Shown here in pieces: positions 21,321-40,090 of a stretch of DNA of 64,000 nt. The notes beneath the pieces are model-generated. The model ran no database searches and was not told the origin of the DNA. It was given only the letters and a program-made list of their open reading frames with translations. The DNA is taken from the NCBI RefSeq assembly GCF_001536285.1, contig NZ_FAOZ01000012.1:1-64000 (forward strand), read 5' to 3'. The position numbers were made by a program, and so were the translations under genes. Source of the stretch: Parafrankia irregularis (GTDB lineage Bacteria; Actinomycetota; Actinomycetes; Frankiales; Frankiaceae). The stretch's first letter is position 1; every line of letters begins with the position of its first letter.

Positions 21321-21336
21321 GGCGGTACTTTTGCGT

Positions 21337-23585: not shown

Positions 23586-23627
23586 CCGTCCACCATCCTT
23601 CCGCCGGCCGGCACCAAGGAGCTGACC

Positions 23628-24089: not shown

Positions 24090-24148
24090 CGGAACACGGC
24101 GACGCCCGCAGCCCTTTCCGTACCGTTGCACCGTACAAGGAGCCGACC

Positions 24149-24613: not shown

Positions 24614-25067
24614 GCCGTGTCCAGCCGATCACGTGCATCGTTCAGGGGCACCAAGTCCTTCCTGACAGCCGGAGCCGCGTTTTCGGTGGACTTCGCCCCT
24701 GCAGGTGCGAGGCCGTGTCGAGGGCATCGGGCACCGCGAAGCGCGCAATGCAGCAGCCGGCCAGCCGCCACCCCCTACTGCCGTTTTACCTGTTGCGCAG
24801 GCACTTTCGAGACCTGCGGCTCGCGGCGGTCTGGTTGGGAGGACGAACCGCAGGCGGCGGGAGCTCGTACTCGTCAACACTGCGCCGAGGAGATGTCCCC
24901 CAGACGATCGACGTTCGGTGGCTACGCTCGTCTACGTTCCTGGTCACGGAGGTGAGCTGCAGCCTGCTCGCGATTTGTCAGATGCGTGAGCAGGTCGGTA
25001 TGAGTGAAGCGGGTCCCGCAGGTACTGACCGCCACCCAAATGGGGTGGTGCGTCCGAAGGAGCTGCG
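24614..25067. other. 454-bp gap without a supported gene
   Basis: Open frames here show no conserved domain, no ribosome binding site and irregular codon use. The right end carries the GAAGGAG ribosome binding site of the next small gene. I see no strong hairpin or repeat. Confidence 0.5.
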
Positions 25068-25277
25068 GTGTCCATGCCTGCCGACTCGGTTGTGGTCCGG
25101 GTTCTTGTGGTGGCGCTGTGCGCCACCGTCTCTCTGATCGTCGCCTTGGTGGCCGGCATGCTGGTTCGGCTGGACGGGGCGAGCCTGCCCAGCGCGGTTA
25201 TGGCCGGCGGTGGGGCATTCGCCGCCGCGATGTTCTTGACGCTCGCCGTGGCCGGGGTGCTAGCGCGAGGACTGTAG
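25068..25277 (+). CDS. small two-helix membrane protein
   Basis: The 69-aa protein has two hydrophobic segments: VRVLVVALCATVSLIVALVAGMLV (about 9-32) and AVMAGGGAFAAAMFLTLAVAGVLA (about 43-66), joined by RLDGASLPS. GAAGGAG sits 5 bp before GTG 25068; an in-frame ATG follows at 25074. It is unlike any named family I know. A CCCTCT-G-AGAGGG hairpin lies 24 bp after the stop (25301-25313). The response regulator begins 223 bp later and is not clearly in the same operon. Confidence 0.6.
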   Translation: MSMPADSVVVRVLVVALCATVSLIVALVAGMLVRLDGASLPSAVMAGGGAFAAAMFLTLAVAGVLARGL

Positions 25278-25500
25278 CCGACGGGTCTGGCTGGAGGTTC
25301 CCCTCTGAGAGGGCCTCGGTACGCGGGTGCTGATCGGGAGTCCCGGGGATTGCTCCTCTCGGCCTGGCCGTGTGGCGACTGGCGCAGGTGTACATCTCCC
25401 TCGCGCCGACGGTGCCTGGCACACCACATGTTCAAAAGCCGCCGAGGGTGTCGGCCGGTCGACCAGGTGGTGTGGGTGGCCGCCTCACTAAGCTGGTGGG

Positions 25501-26178
25501 GTGGTGTTACGCGTGGTCTTGGCCGACGACTCTCTGCTGATGCGTGAGGGTGTGGGCCGGCTCCTGGAGCTTCAGCCCGGCATTACCGTCGTCGGATCGT
25601 GTGGCGATCTGGAGGGGCTTTTCGCCATGGTGGAGGCCGAGCGGCCGGACGCTGTGGTGACAGATGTGCGCATGCCGCCGACCGGCACGGACGAGGGCAT
25701 CCGTGCCGCCTCCCACCTGAGGTCCAGCCATCCCGGGATCGGGGTGGTGGTGCTCTCCCAGTACGCGAGCCCGGAGTATGCGTTGAGCCTGTTCGAAGGA
25801 GGCAGCGCGGGCCGGGCGTACCTGCTGAAGGACAGGGTCGGCGAGCCGCAGCACCTGGCCGATGCGGTGCGCGCGGTCGCCGCCGGTCGTTCGGTGGTGG
25901 ACCCGGTGGTGGTGGAGGCGCTGGTCACGGCCCGGACGTCCACCCGGACATCAGTGCTGGCCTCGCTCAGCCCGCGGGAACGGGAGGTCCTGTCCCAGAT
26001 CGCGCAGGGAAAGAGCAACGCCGCGGTCGGCGCCTCGATCTTTCTTACTGAGAGGGCTGTGGAGAAACACATCAACACCCTCTTCGCGAAGCTCGGGCTG
26101 ACCAACGAGCCGGATGTCAACCGGCGTGTGAAGGCTGTCCTCATCTACCTTGCGGAGGAACAGGCCGCCGGGCCCTGA
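25501..26178 (+). CDS. NarL/FixJ-type response regulator
   Basis: The 225-aa protein has an N-terminal receiver domain (VVLADDSLLMREG; phospho-acceptor D55 in VTDVRMPP; switch lysine in LLKDR). The C-terminal LuxR-type HTH is LSPREREVLSQIAQGKSNAAVGASIFLTERAVEKHINTLFAKLGL. It would be phosphorylated by a HisKA_3-type kinase, and the one encoded at 26627-28729 is the obvious candidate although it lies on the other strand. GTG 25501 (or the next codon, also GTG) is the start. Confidence 0.93.
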   Translation: MVLRVVLADDSLLMREGVGRLLELQPGITVVGSCGDLEGLFAMVEAERPDAVVTDVRMPPTGTDEGIRAASHLRSSHPGIGVVVLSQYASPEYALSLFEGGSAGRAYLLKDRVGEPQHLADAVRAVAAGRSVVDPVVVEALVTARTSTRTSVLASLSPREREVLSQIAQGKSNAAVGASIFLTERAVEKHINTLFAKLGLTNEPDVNRRVKAVLIYLAEEQAAGP

Positions 26179-26199
26179 AGCGGCGTCCTGAAACGGCAC

Positions 26200-26228
26200 C
26201 GCAGCGGTGGCTCTGTCCTACCGCTGCG
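26200..26228 (+). terminator. hairpin between the two response regulators
   Basis: CGCAGCGGT (26200-26208) pairs perfectly with ACCGCTGCG (26220-26228) around an 11-nt loop, 21 bp after the stop of the first regulator. There is no T-run. It suggests that the two regulator genes are separate transcription units or are attenuated between. Confidence 0.5.
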
Positions 26229-26283
26229 CCGAGTCGTGCCAGCACCCTGTACCGGGCCGGACCCGGCCGGCACCATCGGACGC

Positions 26284-26664
26284 ATGGCAGTGAACGGCGA
26301 GGGCGGTGCGGTCGCGGTGCTCGTCGTCGACGACCAGGATCTGTTCCGGGGAATTACGTGTGCCCTGGTCGGGATGGTGCCCGGCTGGCGGGTGGTGGCC
26401 GAGGCGGCGTCCGGCGAGGAAGGTGTCATCCTCGTCCAGCGGATCCGGCCGGCTGTCGTGCTGATGGACGTCTACCTGCCCGGTATCAACGGGATCGAGG
26501 CGACCAGGCGGATCGTCGCAGGCAATCCGACGGTGAATGTCCTGCTCATGTCGAGCTATGCGGCCGACGACCTGCCACCGGGGACTGACGACTGTGGCGC
26601 CGCCGGCTACATCCGCAAGGATGAGCTCACGCCTGCGATCCTGCTGGAGCTCCTTCGGAGGTAG
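26284..26664 (+). CDS. stand-alone receiver-domain protein
   Basis: The 126-aa protein is a receiver domain only. It has VLVVDDQDLFR, phospho-acceptor D62 in VLMDVYLPG, the threonine/serine switch position in LLMSSYAAD and K in YIRKDE. It has no DNA-binding output, so it may act as a phosphate sink or through protein contact. The last helix is short and ends at LLRR. Its 3' end overlaps the convergent histidine kinase gene by 38 bp. ATG 26284 is favoured over 26236 because the receiver fold begins 10 residues later. Confidence 0.82.
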   Translation: MAVNGEGGAVAVLVVDDQDLFRGITCALVGMVPGWRVVAEAASGEEGVILVQRIRPAVVLMDVYLPGINGIEATRRIVAGNPTVNVLLMSSYAADDLPPGTDDCGAAGYIRKDELTPAILLELLRR

Positions 26665-28729
26665 CCCGGGGGATGAGGCCGCGCACGATGGTCCCGGCGC
26701 CGGGTGCGGAGACCACCTTCAGCGTGCCACCCATCGCCCCCAGCCGGTCCTGCATGTTGACGAAGCCGTGGCCGCCGACGGCTGCCTGGTCGAAGCCGGC
26801 GCCGTCGTCGGATACCGAGAACCGGAAATCCTCGCCGTCGGCATCCACCCGCACCTGGACCCGCGCGCCCGGCCCGGCATGCTTGGCGGCATTCTGCAAC
26901 GCTTCGACACAGCAGAAGTAGAGGGCGGCCTCCACGGCGGACGGATACCGGGCAGTGGTCACCTCCACCGAGCATTCCAGGGGGCAGCGGGCCGCGGCCG
27001 CGCGCAACGCGGGGGCGAGGCCGTGGTCGCGCAACAGCGGTGGGTAGATGCCGTGGGCCAGTTCACGCAGCGCCGCGGTGGCCGTCTGCACGTCACGGCG
27101 CAGCTCCGCCAGCAGCTGCCCGGTCACGGTCGGGTCGGCGGCGATGATCTGCTCGGCCATGCCGAGCTTCACCGAGACGCCGAAGAGATGCTGCTGGGCA
27201 CCATCGTGCAGGTCCCGCTCGATCCGCCGGCGGGAGGCGTCGGCGGCGCCGATGATTCGCGCTCGGGATGCCTGCAGCTCGGCGTTACGCTCCTGCAACT
27301 GCGCCAGGGACGCCTGCAGGGCCGTGTCCAGGCTGATGTTGTGCAGGGCCAGGCCCACCGGACGGGCGAGTTCGGCGAGGATGCGGTCGTCCTGGGCGGT
27401 GAACGGGGGCCCGGTCGGCGGCCGCCGGACCACCAGCAGTCCCAGCAGCTCCCCGAAGTGTGTGACGGGCACCGCTCGCACCAGCTCGACGCCGGCGCCC
27501 GCACTGTCGGCGGGCACAGCGACGCCGGAGTGCCCCGGGGCACGTTCGGCCGCACCTGCGCTGGTGGCAGCGCCGGTGCCGGCTGGACCTGTGAGCAGGT
27601 CGGGAATCCAGATCGCGAGCCACCTGGTGCCTGCGGCCCGGGCCTGGGCCACCACGGTCCGCTGCCGTTCGCTGAGCTCGATGGTTGCCGGCGGCCGTTC
27701 TGGCACCGAGACCGTCCTGGCCAGGATCGCCTCCGTTCCGGTCCACACCTCGGCTCCGGCCAGCCCCATCGTGGCCCGTAACAGCTCGGCGAGCTGGAGC
27801 AGCAGCTCGTCCATGGGGACCGCTCTGGTCATCCGGGCGCTGAAGGTGGTGAGCAGTTCCTGCGGGGACGGTCTCACGCTGCGCAGGGCCCGTTCGGCGG
27901 CGTCGGCCAGGCGCGCCCGGGCCGGCCAGGCGAGTGCCGCCGTCACCAGGGCTGCCACCAGGGACAGCCCGAGAACGGTCCGCTCGCCGCCGACCGGCCG
28001 GTGGCCCAGACCGATCACGATGACCAGGTAGACGATGTCGGCAAGAACGGTCAGCCCGGCGACGACCAATGCCCCGGACAACGCCCGGGGGGCCAGCCCT
28101 GCCGTTCGCGGCCAGACGCCTGCGGCGAGACCGAGCGGAAGCGCCAGCGTGCCGGCCAGGGCCGGCAACATCGGCCGTGCCGGGGTGCCGACCAGGAGGA
28201 GAAGGGCACCGGCGACACCGGCACAGGCGACCGCGATCAGCCCTCCGGCGGCTGCCCACAACAGCGTCCAGCGCGCCTGCTGATCCGCGCGGGCCGCGCC
28301 GACAAAGCCGGTCAGCGCCGCGCAGCCAGCCATCGCCCCGGCAAGGGCACCAGCGGGAGCGGCTGTGTCGAGGCCGGCGGTGGCCAGCGCGGCCGACCAA
28401 CCGAGCGCGCCGGCGACGAGAAGAGTGCCGATCGCCCGCCGGCCGGTGCTCGCCAGCCTTCCGTGTGGGAGGGCCAGCAGGACCCAGGCCCAGGCGACGA
28501 CGACCAGTGGGCCCAACGCAGGCATCGCGACGACCGCCGCCTGGAGAGCGGTGACCACGGCGGCGACCCGGGCGAGGCCGGGGCGACCCGCGCGCGCCGC
28601 GGCCACGGTCACCGCCAGCCAGCCGGTACTCAGCAGCGCGGCGATCACGCCCGGCGGTTCGGGCCCTCGGACGGCGGCGAGGACGACGGCCGCGACGACG
28701 GCCACGGCCGCCCCGCCCTCACTCGGCAC
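26627..28729 (-). CDS. sensor histidine kinase (HisKA_3, GAF, multi-TM)
   Basis: The 700-aa kinase has roughly eight N-terminal transmembrane helices (about 1-260), a coiled segment, a GAF-like domain (about 300-460) and the dimerisation/phosphoacceptor box RRRIERDLHDGAQQHL with H508. The HATPase domain has N-box EALQNAAKHA and G1 motif DDGAGFD. It is the NarL-partner type. GTG 28729 has GGAGAGG upstream and overlaps the ABC permease stop by 11 bp. Kinase, permease and ATPase are thus one operon in the order ATPase-permease-kinase. The sensor may monitor the exporter or its substrate, as in Bce-like modules, although the architecture differs. Confidence 0.92.
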   Translation of the reverse strand: MPSEGGAAVAVVAAVVLAAVRGPEPPGVIAALLSTGWLAVTVAAARAGRPGLARVAAVVTALQAAVVAMPALGPLVVVAWAWVLLALPHGRLASTGRRAIGTLLVAGALGWSAALATAGLDTAAPAGALAGAMAGCAALTGFVGAARADQQARWTLLWAAAGGLIAVACAGVAGALLLLVGTPARPMLPALAGTLALPLGLAAGVWPRTAGLAPRALSGALVVAGLTVLADIVYLVIVIGLGHRPVGGERTVLGLSLVAALVTAALAWPARARLADAAERALRSVRPSPQELLTTFSARMTRAVPMDELLLQLAELLRATMGLAGAEVWTGTEAILARTVSVPERPPATIELSERQRTVVAQARAAGTRWLAIWIPDLLTGPAGTGAATSAGAAERAPGHSGVAVPADSAGAGVELVRAVPVTHFGELLGLLVVRRPPTGPPFTAQDDRILAELARPVGLALHNISLDTALQASLAQLQERNAELQASRARIIGAADASRRRIERDLHDGAQQHLFGVSVKLGMAEQIIAADPTVTGQLLAELRRDVQTATAALRELAHGIYPPLLRDHGLAPALRAAAARCPLECSVEVTTARYPSAVEAALYFCCVEALQNAAKHAGPGARVQVRVDADGEDFRFSVSDDGAGFDQAAVGGHGFVNMQDRLGAMGGTLKVVSAPGAGTIVRGLIPRATSEGAPAGSQA

Positions 28730-31175
28730 GCAGGGCCTCTCCGACGCCGATCCGGGCGGCGCGGCGGGCCGGCAGGGCGGCCAGCAGGCCGCCGATCAGC
28801 AGCGTAGCCGGGACGACGAGAGCGAGGGTGAGCTGTGCGACCGGCCGGACGTAGAGGACCGGGATGGTCGACGCCACCGCCCGCCACATCGTCCAGCCCA
28901 GCGCGAGTCCCAGCGGCACGCCGAACAGCAGCCCGGTGAGGGTGAGCGTGGTCGCCTGGGCGAGAGGGATCAGTCGGCTCTGCCGCCGGGTGAGCCCGAG
29001 CGCGCTCAGCACGGCAATCTCGTGTCGGCGCCGCCGTACCGCGGCCGTCAGCGTGTGGCCGGTGGTGGCGACGGCGAGCAGGGCGAGGAAAACACCGAAC
29101 GCCAGCGGCAGCCCGCGGACGTTACGAAGCTGTTGGGCCTCCCGGGGAATGTCGGCCGGACCGAGTTTTGCGGTGTTCTGCCCGCCGAGCACCGCCGAGA
29201 TCCGCTGGGAGACCACCTGGGCGTTCGCGCCGGATCGCAGCGATACGTGGAGCTGGTGGTAGGTGAAGGAACCGCCGGGGAACAGCGCCTGGTAACCGTC
29301 CCCCGTGGTCCACGCGCCCTTCGCGTAACTGACCCCCCCGTCGGGCACGAGCGCGACGCCGGTGAGCCGCATCGGCGCCCGTTCCGTTCCGGCGAAGGTG
29401 AGCGTGTCACCCACCTGCGCGCCGGTCTCCCGGACGGTCTGCGGGGCCAGCGCGATCTCATCCGGCGCCACCGGCATCCGGCCGGAGAGCGTCACGACCG
29501 GTAACAGCCGGCCCGCCACCGCCGGTTGGTGGGCGAAGACGTGGACTGGTAGCCCGTTCACCGTGGCCACACCGACCCGGGTGTCGTTCACCGCGACAAC
29601 GTCCGGATCAGCTGTGAACGCGTCCATGACCTCCCGCGCTGGCGCGAAGTCCGTTCCGTTGAAGCCGACCCAGCCCTCGATCTGGTACGTACGACCGAAC
29701 CGCTGGGGGTTGCCCGCGGCATCTGCGACGCCGGTGTGGAACGTGAGCGCGGCGAGCACCCCGAGCACGCCGAGCACGGCGCCGATCAGGGCCGACCGGG
29801 CCGGCGCCGCGGCGCGTCCCCGACCGGGCTCGAGGGCGAACCGGGCACCGATGAGGACCGGTACCGGAAGACCCAGCCGGTACACGGCGTCGGCGACCAT
29901 CGACCGGGGGGGTGTGGCGGCGACCGGTTTCCTGGCGAAGTCCGACCAGGCGGTGAGTGCCGCCGCGACCGTGACGAGGGCCACCGCCATGACCGCGGTC
30001 CCGGCGAGCACAGCCAGATCAGCATGCCGTCCCGGGGCGGGCTCGTAGTCGGCCGCGGTGCCGATCGGGAACGCGGCCGAAGCGGCCACCGCGGCCGCGG
30101 ACGCCGCGACGGCTCCCGCCGCCGCGGCGAGGGCGGGGCCGGCCGCCGCGGCCGCTGTCGCCTGCACCCGGGTCATTCCCAGCATCAGCAGGACCCGTAG
30201 CTGGGCGGTGGCCGCCGTCGCATACCGGGCGGCGGCCTGACCCAGCACAACAGCGGAGGCGACCAAGGCGGCGAGCGTGAACATCAGCAGGGCGTTCCGC
30301 TCGAAACCGGTGATCCCCTTCGCGTCGCGTGCCTCCTCGACCAGGTTCTGGAACTGGATGTCGTCCTGCTGGCTCAGTTGGGCGAGCCGACGCTGGAAGT
30401 CGGGGAGACCGGCCTCGCCCTGGGCGAGGCGAACCGCGGCGAAGTCGACCCGGTGCCCGCCCGCACCGAACAGGTTCGCGCGGTAGGCGTCGGTGAACGA
30501 CACCGTCGTCATGATCACGCTGTGGTGCGTGAAGTTGTTCACCGCCGGTGAGCGCACCACGCCGACGATCCGCAGCGGCTGGCGCGGACCGCTTGCGGCG
30601 TGGAGTGCCTTGCCCGAGAGGAACAGGTCGGTCTCCCCGGGTGTGAACAGCCGGGCGGTGACCGCGTCGCCCACCCTCAGGTGATGGCGCTCGGCGAACG
30701 ACTCGGTGACCATCGCCTCGCCCACCCGCGTTGGGTCGGCGAGTCGGCCCGCGAGTACCACCGCCCTCTCGACGGTCCGGGTCAGCTCGGCGTCACCGAT
30801 CGGGTACCAGTAGTCCTCGCCGTCAAGCGTCTCGACCCCCTCGATATTGAGACGGACGTCGACGGTAAGCAGCATGGTGCCGACTGCCTCCACCCCTGGC
30901 ATCCGGCGCACCCGGTCCCAGTCGAACCCAGGCGTTCTGGGCGCGACCAGCACGGTGGCGGCGAGATTGGAGTCGCGCAGCCGGTCCACCGCCGATCCGC
31001 CGCGCCGTGCCCCGGCGGTGGCCGCCATCACCACACCGCAGGACAGCGCCACCAGCAGCGTGAGCACGGCCAGCGACCGCCAGCGCCGTCGCAGATCGAG
31101 CCGCAGGAACGCCCACACTGGCATCAACATCACCGCTGCCGACGGGACCATCCTCCTACTCGCGGTCGTCGCCAT
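28719..31175 (-). CDS. ABC transporter permease, FtsX/MacB type
   Basis: The permease is about 818 aa. The first TM is in the segment RWRSLAVLTLLVALSCGVVM, followed by a large extracytoplasmic domain and a cluster of TM helices (around 310-420, including VASAVVLGQAAARYA). A second copy of the same plan ends with TLALVVPATLLIGGLLAALPARRAARI. FtsX-domain proteins couple ATP hydrolysis to movement of an external domain, or to export of peptides and lipids. The start is uncertain: ATG 31175 overlaps the ATPase by 20 bp, and ATG 31151 or 31130 are possible. The ATPase gene directly precedes it. Confidence 0.88.
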   Translation of the reverse strand: MATTASRRMVPSAAVMLMPVWAFLRLDLRRRWRSLAVLTLLVALSCGVVMAATAGARRGGSAVDRLRDSNLAATVLVAPRTPGFDWDRVRRMPGVEAVGTMLLTVDVRLNIEGVETLDGEDYWYPIGDAELTRTVERAVVLAGRLADPTRVGEAMVTESFAERHHLRVGDAVTARLFTPGETDLFLSGKALHAASGPRQPLRIVGVVRSPAVNNFTHHSVIMTTVSFTDAYRANLFGAGGHRVDFAAVRLAQGEAGLPDFQRRLAQLSQQDDIQFQNLVEEARDAKGITGFERNALLMFTLAALVASAVVLGQAAARYATAATAQLRVLLMLGMTRVQATAAAAAGPALAAAAGAVAASAAAVAASAAFPIGTAADYEPAPGRHADLAVLAGTAVMAVALVTVAAALTAWSDFARKPVAATPPRSMVADAVYRLGLPVPVLIGARFALEPGRGRAAAPARSALIGAVLGVLGVLAALTFHTGVADAAGNPQRFGRTYQIEGWVGFNGTDFAPAREVMDAFTADPDVVAVNDTRVGVATVNGLPVHVFAHQPAVAGRLLPVVTLSGRMPVAPDEIALAPQTVRETGAQVGDTLTFAGTERAPMRLTGVALVPDGGVSYAKGAWTTGDGYQALFPGGSFTYHQLHVSLRSGANAQVVSQRISAVLGGQNTAKLGPADIPREAQQLRNVRGLPLAFGVFLALLAVATTGHTLTAAVRRRRHEIAVLSALGLTRRQSRLIPLAQATTLTLTGLLFGVPLGLALGWTMWRAVASTIPVLYVRPVAQLTLALVVPATLLIGGLLAALPARRAARIGVGEALRAE

Positions 31176-31932
31176 GTGCTTCGCTCGCACCCGCATCTTC
31201 CGCCCGCCCATCGATGATCACACCGTCGCGCATATGGACCAGCCGCCCGGCGCCAGCCGCAACCTCGGCCGAATGCGTGACCATCACGATGGTGTGGCCG
31301 TCCATGTGTAACCGGCGGAACAGCTCGAGGATCTCCAGCCCGCCGTCACTGTCGAGCGCGCCCGTGGGCTCGTCGGCTAGCAGCAGGGCGGGTTCGTTCA
31401 CCAACGCACGCGCGATCGCCAGCCGCTGGCGCTGCCCCCCGGACAGTACTGACGGCAGCTGGTCTGCTCGGTCACCCAGACCGAGCAGGTCCAACAGATC
31501 GCGTGCGCGAGCTTCCGCGTCGCGGCGACGCATCCCTGCGATGGCCGCCGGCAACGCGATGTTCTGCATCGCCGACACCCCGTCGATCAGGTTGAAGAAC
31601 TGGAACACCACGCCGATATGGTGCCGGCGGAACCGGGCCGTCCAGTCCGGATCCCGCCCGCTGATCGTCTCGCCGGCAACCTCAACGGTTCCCTCGTCGG
31701 CCGTCTCCAGCCCCGCGACGACGTTGAGCAGCGTGGACTTACCGCAGCCTGACGGACCGATGATCGCGACGAACTCGCCGGCACGGATCTCCAGGTTGAC
31801 CCCACGCAGCGCACGGACCGGCGCCAGTTCGGCGTCGAAGGTCCGCCGCACCCCACGCAGCCTCAGCACCACAGGGGCGGTGGGCGCGACCGCGGACACG
31901 TCCTCGGCTCCGGTAACCGGTGTGAACCTCAC
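31156..31932 (-). CDS. ABC transporter ATP-binding protein (LolD/MacB type)
   Basis: The ATPase is about 258 aa, with Walker A GPSGCGKST, Q-loop FQFFNL, signature LSGGQRQR, Walker B LLLADEPTGALD and H-loop VTHS. Closest in style to MacB/LolD ATPases that partner FtsX permeases, here the protein encoded immediately downstream. GTG 31932 is chosen because the fold begins about 20 residues later; an in-frame ATG lies at 31980. Ribosome binding is weak at either. Confidence 0.92.
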   Translation of the reverse strand: MRFTPVTGAEDVSAVAPTAPVVLRLRGVRRTFDAELAPVRALRGVNLEIRAGEFVAIIGPSGCGKSTLLNVVAGLETADEGTVEVAGETISGRDPDWTARFRRHHIGVVFQFFNLIDGVSAMQNIALPAAIAGMRRRDAEARARDLLDLLGLGDRADQLPSVLSGGQRQRLAIARALVNEPALLLADEPTGALDSDGGLEILELFRRLHMDGHTIVMVTHSAEVAAGAGRLVHMRDGVIIDGRAEDAGASEAHGDDRE

Positions 31933-32276
31933 GCAACACGGCCAGGGGACGCCAGGCCGCCGGCTTGCCCCGCGCAACATCCTGTCGCGGTTCCTCGTGG
32001 CCCGCAGTCAGCGGACCGGCCAGCTTCACCGGCGACAGCATCCCGACGACGATCTCCTGGCCGAGCATCGACCCGTCCGCCGCACCAGCACGCTCTCCCG
32101 GACGATCCGGTTCCCCGTGCGGAACACCGTCGACCACCCATGGCGACCATTAAGCTGCAGCGCGATCTTTCCGGCAAGGGTGTCAGGACCCCGGCACTCC
32201 GGGTGCCAGCACCCCACAGCTGGGCGGCGGCGAGTGAGGGGCACGCAACCGCAATACGGCCTGTGGCGTGGTGCAG
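31933..32276. other. 344-bp gap, possible gene remnant
   Basis: Minus-strand translation gives protein-like pieces in two different frames (FRTGNRIVRESVLVRR and MLGQEIVVGMLSPVKLAG). This may be a frameshifted remnant of an unknown gene. No intact gene is supported. The right part is the downstream flank of the repeat-protein gene at 32277. Confidence 0.3.
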
Positions 32277-33461
32277 TCAGCGGGGGGCGCCTGTCACGGC
32301 CTCCCGGGTTGGGATGTGGGGATTATTGGCACCTTTCAGCGAGTCCCCACCGGTCTTGACGTTTCCCCCGGCTTCTACGAGGTTGCCCGCATTGGCGGCG
32401 GCCCGCATGTCGGCGGCGGTTCCGCCTCTCATACCGACCACACCGGCGAGGATGCCACCGATCCCGCTTCCCGGCTTCGTGATGATATTGATCTTGTCGG
32501 CGGTTTCGCGGTCGGCCAGGTTTGCAGCCGACCCAACCCGGCCTGCGTAGTCCGCTTGTAGCGGCCTGTCCTGTGGCAGGAGGCCACGGACGAGGTTCGA
32601 CAGTTCACGACCCTCTTCCTTCGTCATCCCGAACGTTTTCGCCACCTCCCGCTCACGATCAACGCTGCCGACATACTGGACGGTGCCGCCCCTTCCTTCG
32701 GTGCGCGCGTAGACGACGTTGGCAATCTGTCGCGCGGTTTCGACCGCCACCGGATCGTTGTTCTCCAGACCCCGCTTCAGACTGTCAATCACGGCGCGTC
32801 CCCAAAACCGGGAATCGTCGGTACGGTAACCCTCCTGCTGGGTGCCGTCCTTCCCAGTCGATGATGTCGCGTTCGGTCCGCTCATTCCGCCGGCGGAGGC
32901 GTTGTCCGCGGCCGGCGTGGGCCGTGGATCCTTCGAGAGGTCGCCCTCGGGCTGGGTGCCGTCCTTCCCGGCCGATGATGTCGCGTTCGGTCCGCTCATT
33001 CCGCCGGCGGAGGCGTTGTCCGCGGCCGCCGTAGCCTGCGGATCCTTCGAGAGTCCGCCCTCCTGCTGGGTGCCGTCCTTCCCCGCTGATGATGTCGCGT
33101 TCGGTCCGCTCATTCCGCCGGCGGAGGCGTTGTCCGAAAGCTGCGTGAGCACCGGACGATCGCCCGCGGTGGCCGCGGCCTCGCGACCACTCATCCCGCC
33201 GCTCACCGCCCCACCCAGCCGTTGATCGACAGTCGTGACATTCGGTGAGGCGTCTCCGCCGCCCTTCGCGGCAAGGCCACCTTCCCGTTGATGCGATTGC
33301 CCGAAGCCGGCCCCGCCGCCGGCGGGTCCCGAGCGGTCAGCCCCGCCGTCGCCGACCCCGGAGCGCGAAAGGCTGCCGTCCCGTTGTGTCGTGTCCGGCC
33401 TGGTTGGCTGACCGTCCGCGGGACGGTCGCTGGTGGTTGGATGCTCGTGCGACTGTGGCAT
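32277..33461 (-). CDS. low-complexity protein with three 38-aa repeats
   Basis: The 394-aa protein has no known family. Residues 1-100 are hydrophilic and Gly/Asp/Gln-rich. Three tandem units follow, beginning DNASAGGMSGPNATSS and carrying GKDGTQQEG. A compact conserved-looking part (about 215-330) has SRFWGRAVIDSLKRGLENND, VAVETARQIANVVYART and EREVAKTFGMTKEEGRELSNLVRGLL. A short Gly-rich hydrophobic stretch (GSGIGGILAGVVGM) lies near the end. There is no signal peptide. Its ATG overlaps the previous stop by 1 bp (TGATG), so it is translated with the HerA operon. It may be a structural or scaffold partner of the ATPase. Confidence 0.7.
   Translation of the reverse strand: MPQSHEHPTTSDRPADGQPTRPDTTQRDGSLSRSGVGDGGADRSGPAGGGAGFGQSHQREGGLAAKGGGDASPNVTTVDQRLGGAVSGGMSGREAAATAGDRPVLTQLSDNASAGGMSGPNATSSAGKDGTQQEGGLSKDPQATAAADNASAGGMSGPNATSSAGKDGTQPEGDLSKDPRPTPAADNASAGGMSGPNATSSTGKDGTQQEGYRTDDSRFWGRAVIDSLKRGLENNDPVAVETARQIANVVYARTEGRGGTVQYVGSVDREREVAKTFGMTKEEGRELSNLVRGLLPQDRPLQADYAGRVGSAANLADRETADKINIITKPGSGIGGILAGVVGMRGGTAADMRAAANAGNLVEAGGNVKTGGDSLKGANNPHIPTREAVTGAPR
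32841..33130. repeat. 114-bp direct repeats within the coding region
   Basis: The same block (GGTGCCGTCCTTCC...GAGGCGTTGTCC) begins at 32841, 32955 and 33069, exactly 114 bp apart. The first two are almost identical at DNA level and the third is shortened. The period of 38 codons keeps the frame. High DNA identity implies recent duplication or ongoing homogenisation. Confidence 0.85.
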
Positions 33462-34183
33462 CAGACTCTCCTTCCTGTTCCTGCAGGATTGAACGGGTCC
33501 ACGGCCGGCAGGCGGCCCGGCGCGGGAAGGTCCAGGCCTGCGTTCCCGAGCGTCCGGCCCACGATGCCCACCAAGGAAGCCACCACCTCGTCAGGGAGCG
33601 CGGGCAGCGATGTTTGCCGCCCGACAGCGTTGGTCGCCGCGTCAAATCCTTTGTCGTCTGCCTGCTCCTGCGAACCCAGTGGGTCGCGGACCTGGCTGTA
33701 CCCGGTCGGTCCAAAGACGGCGTTCAGCCCGTCGTCCTCCGAGGTGCCGTCTGGATCTCCCGGTTGGTCGCCGTTCGGACCGCTGGGTTCGTTGCCGCGG
33801 GGCGAGCCCTTCCTGCCACCGCCGCCGTCGAGGCCGATCCCAAGGCTGGGTCCAACTCCCACGGCTGGCAGGAGCCCGGCGGCCGCACGGAGATCCGCGC
33901 TCTCCGACCCGAGACCGGGAACGCCCGCGCCGGGCGTCTTCAGCACCTGGCCGACCGCACGTTCGCCCGCGTCAGCGCCCGAGCCTGCCTGGGCCTGCAG
34001 CGTGGTGGCGCGCTCCATGAGCTTCGCGCGGGACTCGAGGGATCCCTCTTCCATCGTGAGGAACCCCAGCCTGGCGCGGTCGCTGTCCCTACCGGAACCG
34101 GCGGACAGCGCCTGCTTTTCCAGTTTGATCGATTCTCGGCGGGACTGGTCCATGAGGTGGAGCACCGGGCCGAAATCCATCAT
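33461..34183 (-). CDS. hypothetical protein in the HerA operon
   Basis: The 240-aa protein is unrecognised. It begins MMDFGPVLHLMDQSRRESIKLEKQ with a charged helical N-terminus (about 1-80, rich in Arg/Glu/Leu and likely coiled). A Gly/Pro/Asp-rich low-complexity centre follows, then a C-terminal motif LPALPDEVVASLVGIVGRTLG. Both ends overlap neighbours by a single base (TGATG), so translation is strictly coupled to the ATPase upstream and the repeat protein downstream. No signal peptide or TM segment. Tight stoichiometric production suggests one complex; that is inference. Confidence 0.7.
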   Translation of the reverse strand: MMDFGPVLHLMDQSRRESIKLEKQALSAGSGRDSDRARLGFLTMEEGSLESRAKLMERATTLQAQAGSGADAGERAVGQVLKTPGAGVPGLGSESADLRAAAGLLPAVGVGPSLGIGLDGGGGRKGSPRGNEPSGPNGDQPGDPDGTSEDDGLNAVFGPTGYSQVRDPLGSQEQADDKGFDAATNAVGRQTSLPALPDEVVASLVGIVGRTLGNAGLDLPAPGRLPAVDPFNPAGTGRRV

Positions 34184-37100
34184 CACAGACCGGCTTCCGC
34201 CACCACGCGGGCGAGAATCCGGCGGGTGGTTCTCGGCAGCTTCCGGCGGTCGTCGGCGAGCATCTGCTGCTCGAAGCAGACACACACCCGCCTGGCCGCG
34301 ACCTCCACCTCGCGGCTCACCTCGGCGGGCATCTCGGGATCGGGGAACTCCACCAGTTCGTACGCCGCGTCCTGGCAGACCTCCCACGTCTGCTGCGCCC
34401 GGTTGCCACCCGTGGCCAGGTCGCCCTCGTCAGCTGTGCGCCACGCCGACTGGTATCGGCCGCTGGCCACCAGGTCCGCGACGGCCGAGCGGTAGAGGCA
34501 CAGCGGCGGGTCCTGGGCGCAGACGAGTTCGCAGGCTGGATAGGGGCGAAATTCTCGAGGGTGCAGCCGGTGCACCGTCGCGCGAAGCGACGCCGTCAAC
34601 GCGGCGACCTGCGGGCTGCCGGCCAGCTTGGCGAGGAGCAGCTCGCGGAGGCGGTCGCGGAACCCGGCCGTGTCGGCGTAGGACCAGCCCCCCTGGACGC
34701 CGCGGCGGGTGGCCAGCAGATCCGAGCCGTGCCCGAGGTACGCCCGCAGCAGGTCATCGTCGCGTACCGTCACCGGCCGCCGGGCACGCAGCACGAGGAC
34801 GAGGTCGTCCCAGAGCCGTTCGAGCGCATCGGGTTGATTGACGACCGACAGTGTGACCCGGCCGAGCGTCCGCTGGACGTACTCGTCGTCCGCCAGCCGG
34901 CGGGCGGCCTCGCATGCCGCCGGAGTCGCGCAGGTCCGCGCGCAGAACGGCTGGGAGAGGAACAGCTCGTCGAACCTGCCCGCCACGCGCCAGCGCCGCA
35001 TGTGTTCGGCCACCCGGGCATCGGGTGGCGGAACCGGTGAGATCGCGTCCTTGACGAGGGGAACCTGGACCAGAAGCGGTGCGTCGTCGCCGCCGCTGAA
35101 GACGGCAGCCTCGCCGACGCCGAGTGCCGTCAGGGCCGTCGACTGCCGTTCGTCCATGGCCATCGTGCCGGCCAGCGCCTGCCGGTCGTCCGCCGCGACG
35201 ATCCGGTGGGCAATCTTGAGGTTGGTGTTCTTCATGACGTCGGGCGCGAGCCGGACCGGCACCTGGTCGGCGATGACGACCCCCTGGCCGTAGGCGCGGA
35301 TTTCCGACAGGAGGTTCGAGAAGGTCTGGACGGCCTCGCCCCGTGGATTCGCCGTCTCCTCGGAGACCGAGGTGGCCACGTTGGCCAGCAGCCGGTGTGC
35401 TTCTTCCACGACGAGCAGGTGCACGAGGTCGGGCGACTGCCCCTGCGCCCGCCGGTACTCGGCGAGCCTGATGAGCAGCAGGCCGCTGAAGAAGGCGCGG
35501 TCTCCCTCGTCGCCGAGCGCCTCGAGCTCGACCACGGTGGGCATGCCGAACAGTTCCCGCGCTGGCAGCGACCGGACCACGTCGAGCATCGCGCCCTTGG
35601 CGCCCTGGCGAAGCGAGTCGAGCCGGGTGACGAGGGCGGCCGTCAGGTCGCCCGTGACCTTCTCGTCGTACCCCAGCGCCTTGATCACATGCTCGGTTTT
35701 CGCGATCAGGTCGGACAGCGTGGGGAAGGCGGCGGCCACGTCGAGACCAGTCCCGTGACCGCCGTCAGGTGCCGTAAGCCGCGCGTTGGTGTTCGTCCGC
35801 AGGTCCCATCCCCGGTCGACGTAGATGTCGTGGAGGCAGCGCTCCAGGATCTGCGGCAGCGGCGTCCACATCCCGAACGCCGCTGTGAAGACCGCCCGCA
35901 GCAGGTTCAGGTGTTCGCCGACCGTGGTGCCTTCCGGCACCTCGAACGGGTTGAGGACGAACGGCCCGATCGTCGCCTTGCCGGCGGTGAACACCCGCAT
36001 CCGCGAACCGAGAGCCGGATGGTCGATCAGCGCCCGGTACTCGGTCTTCGCCGGCTCGATGACCATGAAGGGGACGTTGTGGGCGGCGGCCTCCACCAGC
36101 ATCGACATGATGGTGTTGGTCTTGCCGGACCCGGTCAGGCCGGCGACGAAGACGTGGCGCGTCAGCGAGCGCCTCGTGATCTCGTACGTCCCGGCCGTCG
36201 GCCGGCGGTGCTGCAGCACGCGACCGATGACGAAGCCCTGGCTGTCGTGGTCGGCGGGCCGCGCGACGACGTCGAACCGCGGCGCCACGTCGACCGCGAA
36301 GCCCGGAGTCTCGATCTCGGGCAGGTGCGCACAGGCAGCCAGCTGTGCCGTCGACAGGAACGTCTGGCATTCGAAAGGACGCCGGTAGAGGCCTGGCGGC
36401 GAATCCCCGGGCTGGTTGGGCATGGCCCAGGCCGCGGCCAGGCCGGCGACCTCGGCCCGCTCGAAGACCCGGACCGGCTCCGGCAACGAACGCTCGCCGG
36501 ACATGACGCTGCGCCACGCGCTTGCGAGCCGGGGATAGCTGTCGCGGTCCCCCCCGAGATACACCGCGGTACGCCATGCCCCGATGGCCAGGCCCTCACC
36601 GGTCGACAGCAGCGACGCCTTCAGGAACTCCACGTACTGGTCCGTGAGCGGGCTCGGCGCGAGTTCGTTCCTGGCGGCCGAGGTGACGGCCCGCATCTCG
36701 TTGAGGACCGAGTCCCGGACGTGACTGATGGTGTCCTCCCTGAGCGGATAGGCCAGCACCAGAACACTCCACGCCGTGCCGGTCATCGACCGGATGATCC
36801 GATCCATCGGGGCGGCACCGTCACGGTGGTCGATTCCCGCTGGTGCGGGCACCCCGAGAGCCATGCCGCCGAGCGGCCATCGCGGCGACTGGGCGGTGAC
36901 GGCCTCCACGTCGACAACAGGGTGGAGCCCGCGAAGCACGGATTCGATCACCCCGATCCGGCGTACCTGAGCCGCCTCCGAACCGGGCCTGGCCGACCAT
37001 GTCCCGAGCTGGACGCGCACGCCGTCGGGTGAGCCGATGATCTGCAACGCCAGCGGGATCAGATATCCGTAGAGCCCTGTGACCAGCTCAGTTGTCGGCG

Positions 37101-37290
37101 ACCGCCATCGTTCGGCCTGCACCGCGGGCTTGTGGTGTTGCGCCTTTTCCGGACGACCGACGCCACGCACCTGCAGCAGCCGGCGGGAGGCGAGCACGCC
37201 CTCCGTCCAGGCCTCGGCCAAGATTCTCGGCCCGGGACCGCAGCGCTGCAGATAGTCGACTTTGGCGGTCGTGACAGATGCCGTGGACAT
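34183..37290 (-). CDS. large HerA/FtsK-like (DUF87) ATPase
   Basis: The 1035-aa protein has an unassigned N-terminal half (1-330) and then a HerA-type ATPase core. Walker A is GLTGSGKT with K390, followed by MSMLVEAAAHNVPFMVIEPAKTEYR. Walker B is HLLVVEEAH with E629/E630. The sensor-like segment is GVVIADQVPVRLAPDVMKNTNLKIAHR. The C-terminal third carries two cysteine motifs, CARTCATPAAC (about 783-793) and CELVCAQDPPLC (about 920-931), plus CVCF near 1000, which may bind zinc or Fe-S. HerA-type enzymes are hexameric DNA or protein translocases, often paired with nucleases or conjugation/defence partners. None of those partners is adjacent. ATG 37290 is behind GGTGGAG. Confidence 0.85.
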   Translation of the reverse strand: MSTASVTTAKVDYLQRCGPGPRILAEAWTEGVLASRRLLQVRGVGRPEKAQHHKPAVQAERWRSPTTELVTGLYGYLIPLALQIIGSPDGVRVQLGTWSARPGSEAAQVRRIGVIESVLRGLHPVVDVEAVTAQSPRWPLGGMALGVPAPAGIDHRDGAAPMDRIIRSMTGTAWSVLVLAYPLREDTISHVRDSVLNEMRAVTSAARNELAPSPLTDQYVEFLKASLLSTGEGLAIGAWRTAVYLGGDRDSYPRLASAWRSVMSGERSLPEPVRVFERAEVAGLAAAWAMPNQPGDSPPGLYRRPFECQTFLSTAQLAACAHLPEIETPGFAVDVAPRFDVVARPADHDSQGFVIGRVLQHRRPTAGTYEITRRSLTRHVFVAGLTGSGKTNTIMSMLVEAAAHNVPFMVIEPAKTEYRALIDHPALGSRMRVFTAGKATIGPFVLNPFEVPEGTTVGEHLNLLRAVFTAAFGMWTPLPQILERCLHDIYVDRGWDLRTNTNARLTAPDGGHGTGLDVAAAFPTLSDLIAKTEHVIKALGYDEKVTGDLTAALVTRLDSLRQGAKGAMLDVVRSLPARELFGMPTVVELEALGDEGDRAFFSGLLLIRLAEYRRAQGQSPDLVHLLVVEEAHRLLANVATSVSEETANPRGEAVQTFSNLLSEIRAYGQGVVIADQVPVRLAPDVMKNTNLKIAHRIVAADDRQALAGTMAMDERQSTALTALGVGEAAVFSGGDDAPLLVQVPLVKDAISPVPPPDARVAEHMRRWRVAGRFDELFLSQPFCARTCATPAACEAARRLADDEYVQRTLGRVTLSVVNQPDALERLWDDLVLVLRARRPVTVRDDDLLRAYLGHGSDLLATRRGVQGGWSYADTAGFRDRLRELLLAKLAGSPQVAALTASLRATVHRLHPREFRPYPACELVCAQDPPLCLYRSAVADLVASGRYQSAWRTADEGDLATGGNRAQQTWEVCQDAAYELVEFPDPEMPAEVSREVEVAARRVCVCFEQQMLADDRRKLPRTTRRILARVVAEAGL

Positions 37291-37315
37291 CGCTCCACCG
37301 TCCCGTTCCGCGCTG

Positions 37316-37936
37316 TCAGCAGCTCGCTGGCCTGATGCCCGCGTCGCGTGCCGAATCACACCAGTTCTGATGGTCGCTCGCACTCATGACGGTTCCCAGG
37401 ACCATGAACGCGGCCACCAGGACAAACGCCAGAACCAGAAAGATGACCAGCCCCTTCCAGGGGAACCTCCTCTTCCGCACCAGGGAGTTGGTTGTCAGGT
37501 TCTCGATGCGCTCGGCCCGGATAGTGCCGTCCTTCCACGAGCCGGCCACCCGGACCTCGTCGCCCTCGCTCAGCGATCCCTCAAAACCCCGCGCGCGCAT
37601 CTCCACGGCGACGGGAGGCAACCGGTTTCCGGCACTGTCGTAGCGCTCGATCCGAAACGCCCACACCGTCACCGCGTCGCCGTTGTCCGAGGCCTCCGAA
37701 CGGGTCTGAATCCCGCGTGCCTGCCCTTCGACGCACGCCGCCCCGCTCCGCGGAACCGGACCGCGGCGGCCACCGGCAGGCGCCGGCCCCTCCGGGGCAC
37801 GATGGCCCGGAGAAAACACCTGTCCATGCCCTGCGGGCGGCGGGAACGGCCCCGCGGTGTCCGAGCCTCGCCGCATCCAGTCCAGGTTCGAACTGCCCCA
37901 ACCCGTCCCCATGGTCGACTCGTCGTCGACGCTCAT
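37316..37936 (-). CDS. single-TM protein with OB-like domain
   Basis: The 206-aa protein opens with a disordered Pro/Gly-rich part (1-80). Next is a small beta-rich domain (AVTVWAFRIERYDSAG...SEGDEVRVAGSWKDGTIRAERIENL), which reads like an OB fold of the YdeI/NfeD or DUF5666 sort. A strongly basic RKRRFPWK precedes one TM helix (GLVIFLVLAFVLVAAFMVLG), and a short tail has two cysteines. The positive-inside rule puts the OB domain in the cytoplasm. ATG 37936 has GGAGGG at 5 bp. It is 25 bp upstream of the HerA-like gene and is the first gene of that operon; it may anchor the ATPase at the membrane. Confidence 0.7.
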   Translation of the reverse strand: MSVDDESTMGTGWGSSNLDWMRRGSDTAGPFPPPAGHGQVFSPGHRAPEGPAPAGGRRGPVPRSGAACVEGQARGIQTRSEASDNGDAVTVWAFRIERYDSAGNRLPPVAVEMRARGFEGSLSEGDEVRVAGSWKDGTIRAERIENLTTNSLVRKRRFPWKGLVIFLVLAFVLVAAFMVLGTVMSASDHQNWCDSARDAGIRPASC

Positions 37937-38393
37937 ATAGCCCTCCCTCATCCGACTGTATTCCCGGCAGCAGGTTCACTCCAAATCGCCCAGAAGGAAC
38001 CAAACAAGAACGGAGGAAAAATTAGATAGCAGCCAGCAAGCGAAATGTTCTTTCCCGGATCGTCATCCTCCACGGAATCCGGTGTCGCGACGACCGTGCA
38101 GGCCGGTGAATCAAGGGGATGCCAGCACCCCGTGCAGTCGCGATGCGCGACGGCAGGCTGCAACACGGGATCCCGGATGGCGCGTCGCACCACCGCCCGC
38201 GTCGCCCGCTACGACGGCGCCGAGCGAGTCACCGGACCGCTGCTACCGCACCTGCTTCAACGCAAATTCGGTCTCCGGCACGAAGCCATCGATGTCAACA
38301 CCGTCCAGAACCCGCTGAAAAACCTCAGGGCCCGCACCGGCCGACACTGCTACATCCCCTGAGCGAGTCCGCGAGGCTCCTGATCGGTCATGT

Positions 38394-38540
38394 CTGAAAC
38401 GCCTGCGTTCCGTCCAGACCGTCGGCGCCGGACCCGCCTTGGTGCAGAACATCCGCCGCGGCCACTACGAGCTCACCGTCGACACCGACCCTCAGCTTCG
38501 GCTGGCAGCCGCGTTCACCGAACTCGCAGTAGCCGTCTGA
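38394..38540 (+). pseudogene. IS6-family transposase C-terminal remnant
   Basis: The frame reads LKRLRSVQTVGAGPALVQNI, then RRGHYELTVDTDPQLRLAAA and FTELAVAV before the stop. This is the standard C-terminus of IS6/IS240-type DDE transposases (xFVQNLRRGHYEL...AAAFTEL). The rest of the gene is absent upstream, and I saw no terminal inverted repeat. It marks old insertion activity between the HerA operon and the Cys-tail gene. The rest of 37937-38619 holds no supported gene. Confidence 0.75.
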
Positions 38541-38619
38541 CCGGCAGCCGGCCGCCGCTGCACGCTTGCCCGGCCTTCGCTGAACGCAACGGTGCCAGAC
38601 CAGCGAAGCAAGTCGCCGG

Positions 38620-39180
38620 TCAGCATCCCGGCACATGCACAACGCACGCGGCACAGTAGCCAGCCGAGAACAGGCCGATGCCAGTCCCAAGAGTGTCAGC
38701 GGAAATCCCGCACGCGATCCCGCACAGCGGGGGGCATTCTGCTGCCGCAGACGGAACTGCCCCCTCGAAGAGCTTCTCGCGAAACGCCGGCTCGGCTTTC
38801 AAGGAGCGGGCGAAGGAAAATATTCGGGTGGCGTTCGGCAGATCAACATCCGCAAGTATCCGCTCCAGCTCGTACGCCACCGTTTCCGCGGTGCCCCGAG
38901 CCTCGCGCACACAACTCCCAGCCTCAACACGTACGGTCACAGCCTCCCCATCGGAGCCCCCCGAGTATGTGGCTCGAGTACCGCATTCGTCCTCGAGTGT
39001 CACCGTCAAACCATCACCAGCAACAACGGAGTTCAGGACTTCGACAACGGTCCCGCCCTGACGGGCATGAAGCGAAATTGAATCCCCATCCCGGTGTATC
39101 TGAAACCGACTCTCCTCGAAGTCGATCTCGACCACGCCTGCAGGGGATCCCGTGAGCCGATACGGCGAGATTTCCGTCAT
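38620..39180 (-). CDS. protein with cysteine-rich, peptide-like C-terminus
   Basis: The 186-aa protein has a beta-rich N-terminal part (1-90; VVEIDFEESRFQIHRDGDSI, TVTLEDECGTRATYSG) and a helical linker (96-140; YELERILADVDLPNATRIF). The tail from 145 has six cysteines in 38 residues (149, 153, 157, 176, 179, 186), including CPPLCGIACG and GYCAACV. The layout of a leader-like domain plus a Gly/Cys-rich core resembles RiPP or halocin-C8-type precursors. No modification gene is next to it, so function is unknown. AAAGGA precedes the ATG. It lies upstream of the HerA operon on the same strand but is separated by transposase debris. Confidence 0.65.
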   Translation of the reverse strand: MTEISPYRLTGSPAGVVEIDFEESRFQIHRDGDSISLHARQGGTVVEVLNSVVAGDGLTVTLEDECGTRATYSGGSDGEAVTVRVEAGSCVREARGTAETVAYELERILADVDLPNATRIFSFARSLKAEPAFREKLFEGAVPSAAAECPPLCGIACGISADTLGTGIGLFSAGYCAACVVHVPGC

Positions 39181-39227
39181 GACCTAAATCCTTTTCTGTA
39201 CCGCGCCGGAGCCGTCGCATCTTCCTC

Positions 39228-39348
39228 GGCGCCGGGCTCCGGCGCCTGTCGTGTCGTCGACACTACGTATCTCGGGACACCCCGCCCAGGGTGCTCGCCG
39301 GTCAATCTGCCGGGGGTGGTAGCACGCGAATTCCGGTTTCTACCACCC
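39228..39348. other. two perfect inverted repeats upstream of the Cys-tail gene
   Basis: GGCGCCGG-GCT-CCGGCGCC (39228-39246) lies 48 bp before the start codon on the minus strand. GGGTGGTAG (39314-39322) pairs with CTACCACCC (39340-39348) further upstream. The first could fold in the mRNA leader, and the second could be an operator. Neither has a T-run. Confidence 0.5.
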
Positions 39349-39539
39349 GGCCAGGGGCCTGCTTCAGGATCGGCCGGGTGGCCTGGGGGATCTTACCCCC
39401 GGGCTCCTACAGATCCCGGCGTGACGATCTCTCGTTACCGGACTCCTGCCATTCCGTCCGCCGGGACGCTGCGGCCCGTACACAGTGGGTGAGGAGTCCG
39501 GGCTACTGGCGCTTCACACGCCTGCTGGTAAAGGCGGCC

Positions 39540-39888
39540 CGACCGTGTCGGCACCGGCCTGGCAGGAGGTGGTTCGTCGACGAGACCTAACGTCAAGGTC
39601 TCCGGCCGGTGGACATACCTGTACCGGGCGGTCGACCACGACCAGTACGCGCAGGTCATCGACGTTCTCGCCAGCACACGGCGCGGCCAGGCCGCCGCCC
39701 GGCGATTCTTCGTCCGAGCGTTGACGCATGGACGCCGCCCGGTCGAGGTCACGACCAACAAGGCCGCGGTCTACCCGCGGGTCCTCGACGAACTGCTGCC
39801 CGAGGCTTGGCACGTCGACACCACCCGGGACAACAACCCTATTGAATCCGACCATGGCCGATTGAAAGCACGGCAATGCCCATGCTGA
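39540..39888 (+). pseudogene. IS6-family transposase catalytic-core remnant
   Basis: Frame one gives RHRPGRRWFVDET, then an extra A at about 39589 shifts the frame. The next frame continues VKVSGRWTYLYRAVDHDQYAQ, VIDVLASTRRGQAAARRFF and NNPIESDHGRLKAR. These are the DDE motifs of IS6-type transposases: D in FVDET, second D position altered in VTTNKAAVYP, E in IESDHGRLK. The frame ends at TGA 39886-39888 without the usual C-terminus. The element is dead. No other gene is supported in 39181-40090. Confidence 0.8.
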
Positions 39889-40090
39889 AGGATCGCCGTA
39901 AGGTCGCGGTCGTTCACTACTCCGCCGCCGACGAGCACGTCGGCCGTCTGCTCGGGTTGTCTCTGTTCCACGATGTTCGCATTGCCAGCTGTCCTCCCAA
40001 CTGACTCGCGGGCCGCAACTATCTCGTCGAACGTGAGACCAATCGGCCGCCGGACATGCCTGATCGCGGGGGCCCACCCCATCCTCACTG

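Follow-up and report, generated by a model that had tools for sequence, protein, structure and literature searches.

A HerA/FtsK-class ATPase operon of Parafrankia irregularis as a candidate branch of a motor-linked polymorphic-effector family

A 64,000-nucleotide stretch of the Parafrankia irregularis genome (assembly GCF_001536285.1, contig NZ_FAOZ01000012.1, positions 1 to 64,000; hereafter the window) carries a four-gene operon built around a large HerA/FtsK-class ATPase. The genes, here called g1 to g4 in order, occupy positions 37936 to 32277 of the minus strand (Table 1), and all four open reading frames (ORFs) that the initial annotation had grouped into a one-strand operon were recovered. 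g2 starts 25 bases after g1, and one-base overlaps (TGATG) join g2 to g3 and g3 to g4. The initial annotation had read these overlaps to mean that the last three products are made in fixed proportion; both overlaps are present and suggest translational coupling of g2, g3 and g4, but a fixed proportion does not follow from overlap.

Table 1. Features of the operon and its surroundings, in window coordinates
Feature	Position	Strand	Basis
g1, 206-aa oligonucleotide/oligosaccharide-binding (OB)-fold protein with one C-terminal transmembrane helix	37316..37936	-	hydropathy, AlphaFold, Foldseek, synteny
g1 OB-fold domain, SSB/PriB-like (predicted)	37472..37744	-	AlphaFold (predicted local distance difference test score, pLDDT, >90), Foldseek
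g1 transmembrane core	37397..37453	-	hydropathy 3.15 over 19 residues; helix in model
g2, 1035-aa HerA/FtsK-class ATPase	34183..37290	-	Pfam; no transmembrane segment of its own
g2 DUF87/HerA central ATPase core, P-loop GLTGSGKTNT	35938..36171	-	Pfam DUF87, residues 374-451
g2 cysteine motif 1, C783/C787/C793	34912..34944	-	all three invariant, 15/15
g2 cysteine motif 2, C920/C924/C931	34498..34533	-	C920 and C931 invariant, 15/15
g2 C1005, sixth invariant cysteine	34276..34278	-	invariant, 15/15
g3, 240 aa, helical-looking start, then low complexity	33461..34183	-	one-base overlaps on both sides
g4, 394 aa, low-complexity leader and a domain found internally in a relative	32277..33461	-	variable effector family member
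g4 NASAGGMSGPNATSS repeat, three copies	32858..33134	-	repeat search, shuffles
g4 C-terminal domain	32367..32801	-	homologous to internal domain of Rhodococcus opacus PD630 g4
Region without counterpart in congener G017	12828..40089	.	BLASTN to L070 and L071; 54 bp instead

The operon and its close relatives

The close branch of the ATPase comprises 15 full-length loci, namely the window, L032-L036, L041, L060-L064 and L075-L077 (L and G numbers are our handles for loci and genomes). The 14 orthologues share 42-62% identity with the window ATPase, and pairwise identities across the whole set span 38-93%. Full-length orthologues are rare: in the phylum sample 1 of 396 genomes had one, this being P. 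irregularis itself (E 1e-150), whereas genus samples yielded 5/392 and 0/150, and family samples 1/250 and 5/394, two of the latter five already known (E 1e-100). One further scan of genome contigs returned a single orthologue, from Streptomyces sp. WAC 01529, and within the organism's own order 20 of 35 genomes held some homologue of the ATPase, one of them, besides its own, at 60% full length. Plasmids account for five records covering at least 80% of the query and for four of the 15 loci (L033-L036). No viral contig matched the family, and among phages two fecal contigs alone showed similarity (28-33% over the core), so that a viral origin was rejected.

In 14 of the 15 loci the ATPase has a g1-type gene on its upstream side and a low-complexity gene on its downstream side, the exception in both respects being L061, and the g1-g2-g4 association is accordingly kept in 14/15. 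The neighbourhood thus holds together for three genes but not for g3, whose counterparts were noted only within clade A; in clade B and L064 (together L035, L036, L062, L063, L064, L076 and L077) the low-complexity, g4-type gene begins about 10 bases or less from the ATPase stop codon, and hence no g3 lies there. A strict four-gene operon was for this reason rejected as the unit. The initial annotation had held that ATPase homologues occurring without the other genes would tell against its reading, and such homologues exist in part: the ~30% homologues described below lack g1, clade B has no room for g3, and L061 has neither g1 nor g4.

The g1 protein combines a membrane anchor with what is, by its model, an OB fold, as had been proposed initially. 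The AlphaFold model, made from a two-sequence alignment, shows a confident beta-barrel (pLDDT >90 at residues ~70-160) followed by a single long C-terminal helix, and the top Foldseek matches are nearly all SSB or PriB OB folds (best E value 2.6e-4). The ATG further upstream, at 37951, falls on what is likely the ribosome-binding site. In most Streptomyces-type and Embleya relatives the protein begins with zinc ribbons (DZR, 9.1e-10 in L032 and 3.7e-9 in L033), which were not seen in g1 of the window, L034 or L041. The g1 protein of L064 carries two PASTA stretches after its transmembrane helix (Pfam, 2.2e-22), and PASTA domains so placed presumably mark its C-terminus as extracellular. Searched for by its OB and transmembrane part, g1 was matched in six plasmid records, five of them beside the ATPase. 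Strict confinement of g1 to ATPase loci was rejected, as in the sixth record, from Embleya NBC_00888 (L065, 11707-12300), a g1-like zinc-ribbon OB-transmembrane protein stands beside a glycosyltransferase-like ORF with no HerA gene.

Profile searches of the operon's proteins placed g2 and left g3 and g4 without a naming match in Pfam, NCBIfam or PADLOC. g2 exceeded the Pfam cut-offs for FtsK_SpoIIIE (1e-7), HerA_C (4.7e-6) and DUF87 (1.2e-5), and with its core matched and its P-loop intact it belongs to the HerA/FtsK superfamily. The earlier proposal of a HerA-class complex that is anchored in the membrane, has no name in the libraries and carries unusual conserved cysteine motifs is supported. 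PADLOC HerA models of known defence systems match g2 at 1.3e-14, NCBIfam CedD does so at 1.2e-20, far below the CedD cut-off, and the best relative in the Protein Data Bank (PDB) reaches 1.6e-8 over 96 residues. The two three-cysteine motifs noticed at first in the C-terminal third are real rather than chance features: five of their six cysteines, and C1005 in addition, are invariant in all 15 loci, the position of C924 being Cys in 8 of 12 sequences and Trp in 4 of 12. The first C-x3-C pair of motif 1 is kept in all four distant paralogues aligned. The cysteines may serve in metal binding or disulfide formation.

Downstream genes with exchangeable C-termini

In g4 the initial annotation had recognised a repeat protein, and three copies of the repeat are indeed present. 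Its GGMSGPNATSS motif occurs three times in the window protein and once each in L032 and L060, and in 0 of 300 shuffles; a second motif of the leader, R-x-[ED]-R-[PG]-[DE]-L, was found in 6 of 15 g4-region proteins, the window's not among the six, and likewise in 0 of 300 shuffles. Residues 221-365 of window g4 align with residues 379-525 of the 879-aa g4 of Rhodococcus opacus PD630 (41% over 147 aa, E 2e-20). The Rhodococcus protein runs ~350 residues beyond this shared domain to an unrelated end, whereas window g4 has no terminal domain past the shared one, ends in no toxin that could be recognised and is followed by no evident immunity gene. Because g4 stops at what is an internal domain in its relative and no immunity gene is visible, the cargo of the window operon has probably been lost or is of another kind.

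Across the close branch, the two ends of g4 have different histories. Between L033 and L075 the ATPases are 86% identical and the first 126 aa of g4 46% identical, and the rest of g4 gives no significant match; between L032 and L077 the ATPases are 45% identical and the leaders do not match, and the last 304 aa of g4 are 71% identical. At the level of sequence, this pattern is one of cassette exchange, with C-termini independent of the ATPase. The initial annotation had seen no nuclease-like partner in the system, a view that found no support: the partner is g4, and in its relatives the C-terminus is an exchangeable effector-like domain. At the end of L041 g4, the elements of the GIY-YIG motif, as judged by eye, occur in order; no plasmid or PDB match was found for this end. 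Deaminase (L063) and ADP-ribosyltransferase (L064) readings, made by eye and unsupported by any search, were not used, and PD-(D/E)XK readings by eye of L034, L035 and L044 were not counted. In L033, L062, L075 and L076, Thr/Asp-rich repeat arrays take the place of a globular C-terminal domain. A model of the L032 C-terminus had a pLDDT of 40, useless for fold assignment.

The nearest other homologues seen, far nearer than the solved HerA proteins, form a distant branch, whose ATPases are 29-30% identical to g2 overall (four aligned) and 31-39% over the best-matching stretch; two of them, L045 and L046, lie in the P. irregularis genome itself. Among 24 (9 + 15) distant loci from the organism's own family, the Frankiaceae, 13 have a leader-type gene overlapping or adjoining the ATPase stop (L084 and L091 could not be judged). 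Fourteen post-ATPase genes of this branch, ten from the own family and four plasmid-borne, were scanned with Pfam (at L037 the gene scanned was the second one downstream), and 5/14 gave a match to a known toxin family (three in Frankiaceae, two outside). YwqJ deaminase domains occupy the C-termini of L052 (4.3e-6) and L080 (4.2e-8); the L045 C-terminus matches Ribonuclease at 5.1e-4, with a score below the Pfam cut-off; L040, on a Streptomyces antimycoticus plasmid, matches RelA_SpoT at 4.4e-4, its score also below the cut-off; and L038, on a Lactococcus plasmid, matches WHH (1e-15) and Colicin-DNase (1.6e-11).

Immunity-type genes lie directly downstream in this distant branch. The ribonuclease (RNase) gene of L045 is overlapped by a Barstar gene (3.4e-18), the RelA_SpoT gene of L040 is followed by HD_4 (2.2e-21), the genes following in L050 and L052 encode MORN_2 (6.5e-11 and 1.2e-14), that of L038 DUF6985 (1.5e-5) and that of L049 DUF2283 (2.4e-4, just under the cut-off); two of the eight following genes scanned had no match of any kind. 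Of these combinations, RNase plus barstar and RelA/SpoT plus HD hydrolase are matching pairs of a toxin and its antidote. Leaders and C-termini were compared among nine distant loci: L045 and L049 are 95.6% identical in the ATPase and 71% in the leader, with no match over the last 130 aa, and L050 and L052 are 53% identical in the ATPase and 73% in the last 130 aa, with no match in the leader. Taken with the two close-branch pairs, these indicate that the leader, unlike the C-terminus, follows the ATPase; independent exchange of the C-terminus, the mark of polymorphic toxins, is thus found in both branches of the family. Functions may carry over from one branch to the other. A mutually homologous family of membrane proteins, distinct from g1 and with one to three predicted transmembrane segments, is encoded directly upstream of the distant ATPase in six of nine loci checked and elsewhere near the ATPase in other loci.

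Several of these distant loci have gene orders worth recording. L045, in the window genome (G000 contig C17, 6313-8426, minus strand), comprises a HerA-like ATPase, a leader with barnase-type RNase and an overlapping barstar; L040 (10481-13352) has a HerA-like ATPase, a RelA/SpoT-domain protein and an HD_4 hydrolase in succession; and L038 (535-11040, plasmid pB26B) has a WYL regulator, two dynamins, a HerA-like ATPase, a colicin-type DNase and a DUF6985 gene in succession. A GAP1-N2/GAP1-M/DO-GTPase protein is encoded near the distant HerA locus L048 (14864-17833, minus strand). In Lactococcus, Acinetobacter and Anabaena the distant homologues, which sit on long branches in the tree of ATPase cores (42 rows), have WYL, dynamin or GTPase genes as neighbours.

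Genomic setting and known systems

The operon lies in a variable region of a 9.5-Mb genome, as the stretch around it, ~27 kb, is missing from congener G017 and partly from congener G020. In G017, BLASTN matches ending at window position 12,827 and resuming at 40,090 are joined across 54 bp; G020 lacks the right-hand part of the region with an identical junction at 40,090. No integrase was recognised in the region, and no direct repeats of at least 12 bases were found at its borders. No relaxase, VirB4 or TraB-like gene was recognised among g1-g4 (Pfam) or in the neighbouring ORFs (by eye). Upstream of the operon, an ORF of 186 aa (38620-39180, minus strand) with a Cys-rich C-terminus, CPPLCGIACG...GYCAACVVHVPGC, resembles a secreted or processed peptide and had no above-cut-off match in Pfam, NCBIfam or PADLOC. 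At 12912-13873 (minus strand) two adjoining ORFs look, by eye, like an ATPase of the AAA type whose end resembles PD-(D/E)XK, and L041 has a comparable ORF ahead of its operon (7902-8360).

No named conjugation or secretion system matched the operon, in keeping with its initial description. The HerA-NurA, HerA-SIR2 and HerA-DUF4297 pairs share the HerA-class ATPase core but not the extra N- and C-terminal regions and six invariant cysteines of g2; membership in these defence systems was rejected, since in Pfam, NCBIfam and PADLOC neither g1, g3 and g4 nor the 38620-39180 ORF matched a partner nuclease or SIR2, and no NurA, SIR2 or DUF4297 adjoins the ATPase. Type VII (ESX/Ess) secretion systems (T7SSs) likewise place an FtsK/HerA-superfamily motor at a Gram-positive membrane and have toxin substrates, but g2 has one ATPase core and no transmembrane segment, unlike the multi-domain EccC/EssC. 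No gene scanned, g1-g4 included, had an above-cut-off WXG100 or LXG match, and on these grounds the operon was not assigned to the T7SSs. Nor was it assigned to type IV secretion systems (T4SSs) or conjugation, since no relaxase, VirB4 or mating-pair genes were recognised, although the Rhodococcus plasmid locus has an adjoining relaxase.

The loci also resemble polymorphic toxin systems, in which a machine-tied leader precedes an exchangeable C-terminal toxin with an adjoining immunity gene, as in the distant branch, and the toxin families are also alike (barnase-type RNase, YwqJ deaminase, WHH/colicin DNase). The part of the account available to us ties FtsK/HerA-type ATPases to the T7SSs (YueA) and FtsK-related ones to the T4SSs (Zhang et al. 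2012, PMC3482391). The present loci differ in that their ATPase is of the DUF87/HerA kind and has a membrane partner to itself, and in that no immunity gene was found in the close branch. The accessible literature yielded no account that links HerA/DUF87 ATPases to polymorphic toxins other than in the T7SSs and T4SSs. The TdtA operon, which mediates transjugation in Thermus thermophilus, is again a membrane-linked four-gene operon with a HerA-type ATPase, but it encodes a NurA-like nuclease, a restriction enzyme and a methylase, and the available part of its description mentions no OB-transmembrane or leader-cargo protein (PMC5365140). The GAP1-N2 GTPase-centric conflict systems, as far as the portion available to us describes them, share with these loci their occurrence in Actinobacteria, zinc ribbons, transmembrane parts with extracellular domains and variable components, and a GAP1 gene near L048 adds to the likeness, but that portion names no HerA component (Kaur et al. 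2020, PMC7159879). Membership was rejected, as Pfam detected neither a GTPase nor GAP1 among the genes of the operon.

A proposed motor for polymorphic effectors and rival readings

The reading to which we incline, with confidence slightly above even, is that the operon represents a branch of a HerA-driven polymorphic-effector family in which g4 is moved by the motor and most likely exported. A dedicated partner, in this operon g1, would let g2 assemble at the membrane; the g4 product would be the substrate of the motor, its low-complexity leader serving as the address that g2 recognises and its C-terminal part as exchangeable cargo, in relatives often toxin-like (nuclease, RNase, deaminase or RelA/SpoT); g3 would be a clade-specific adaptor; and the motor would thread the leader-cargo protein across the membrane, so that it could act outside the cell or within a neighbour. 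Movement of g4 by the motor and its export, like metal binding by the cysteines and toxicity of the close-branch C-termini, are what we infer from these patterns, and export appears the likeliest use in view of the membrane partner, of the PASTA domains and of the distant-branch immunity genes. More tentatively, the family could constitute a new class of Gram-positive secretion machine, a HerA/DUF87 hexamer on a dedicated membrane partner that recognises leaders of great length and low complexity and exports polymorphic toxins. On that view, and just as tentatively, the two branches would use unrelated partner families, and the OB anchor and Cys-rich (metal or disulfide) domain would be specific to one of them.

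A number of observations count against the favoured reading. None of 11 distinct close-branch g4 proteins scanned, the window's included (L062, L075 and L076 were left out), has a C-terminus above the Pfam cut-off, and NCBIfam gave no match for five close-branch g4 proteins or, scanned separately, for window g4. The GIY-YIG reading of L041 rests on the motif seen by eye and a PHROG endonuclease match at E 0.12, and g4 of L033, L036, L062, L075 and L076 ends in Thr/Asp-rich or other repeats with no recognisable domain. L077 and L032/L060 have no downstream ORF in common despite their common C-terminal cassette, so that no immunity gene travels with the L032/L077 cassette, and no common or evident immunity candidate was found in ten close-branch loci. 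Neither a signal peptide nor a channel protein was recognised, and 9 of the 24 distant Frankiaceae loci have no leader-type gene after the ATPase. The tree of ATPase cores separates the 15 OB-transmembrane loci from the others with support of only 75/46. Finally, the OB domain of g1 resembles a binder of single-stranded DNA, which fits protein export less well than it does DNA transfer or defence; this likeness and the missing close-branch immunity genes favour an effector that acts inside the cell.

Such an effector is the substance of an intracellular, abortive conflict system, in which the motor would sense or pump invading DNA with the help of the OB protein and free the effector in its own cell, nothing being exported. 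Besides the SSB/PriB-like fold of g1 and the lack of close-branch immunity genes, the match of g2 to PADLOC defence models is consistent with it, as are the WYL, dynamin and GTPase neighbours in Lactococcus, Acinetobacter and Anabaena and the GAP1/DO-GTPase near L048. We nevertheless judge it unlikely: barstar, HD and MORN immunity-type genes, as found in the distant branch, are usual for toxins that reach kin, and the PASTA domains of L064 g1, which presumably face outward, would be needless for a cytosolic effector. Conjugation-like DNA transfer, with the motor pumping DNA, g1 holding single strands and g4 co-transferred so that its C-terminus aids establishment, would suit the plasmid-borne loci, one of which (L034) adjoins mobC, a relaxase and a conjugative-transfer gene, and the variable region in which the window copy lies; the CedD similarity of g2 points the same way, as does the donation of DNA by the HerA-type TdtA in Thermus, in the part of that report available to us (PMC5365140). 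It seems improbable, as no relaxase, VirB4 or TraB-like gene was recognised beside the window operon, Rhodococcus has a separate coupling protein, and barnase-barstar and RelA-HD cassettes are implausible as establishment factors. Decay of the window operon, with effector and function lost, would agree with the early stop of g4 relative to Rhodococcus, the absence of an immunity gene and the gap in the congeners, and is compatible with the motor-effector reading for the family, but four open frames, intact overlaps and P-loop and a full set of conserved cysteines make it very improbable.

A HerA motor with a co-varying leader and an independent cargo offers a testable candidate route by which toxin-like proteins could leave filamentous actinobacteria. 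If export proves true, the family would add a new class of motor for toxin export; if nothing is exported, the novelty would lie instead in how HerA pumps are armed, with effectors that can be interchanged.

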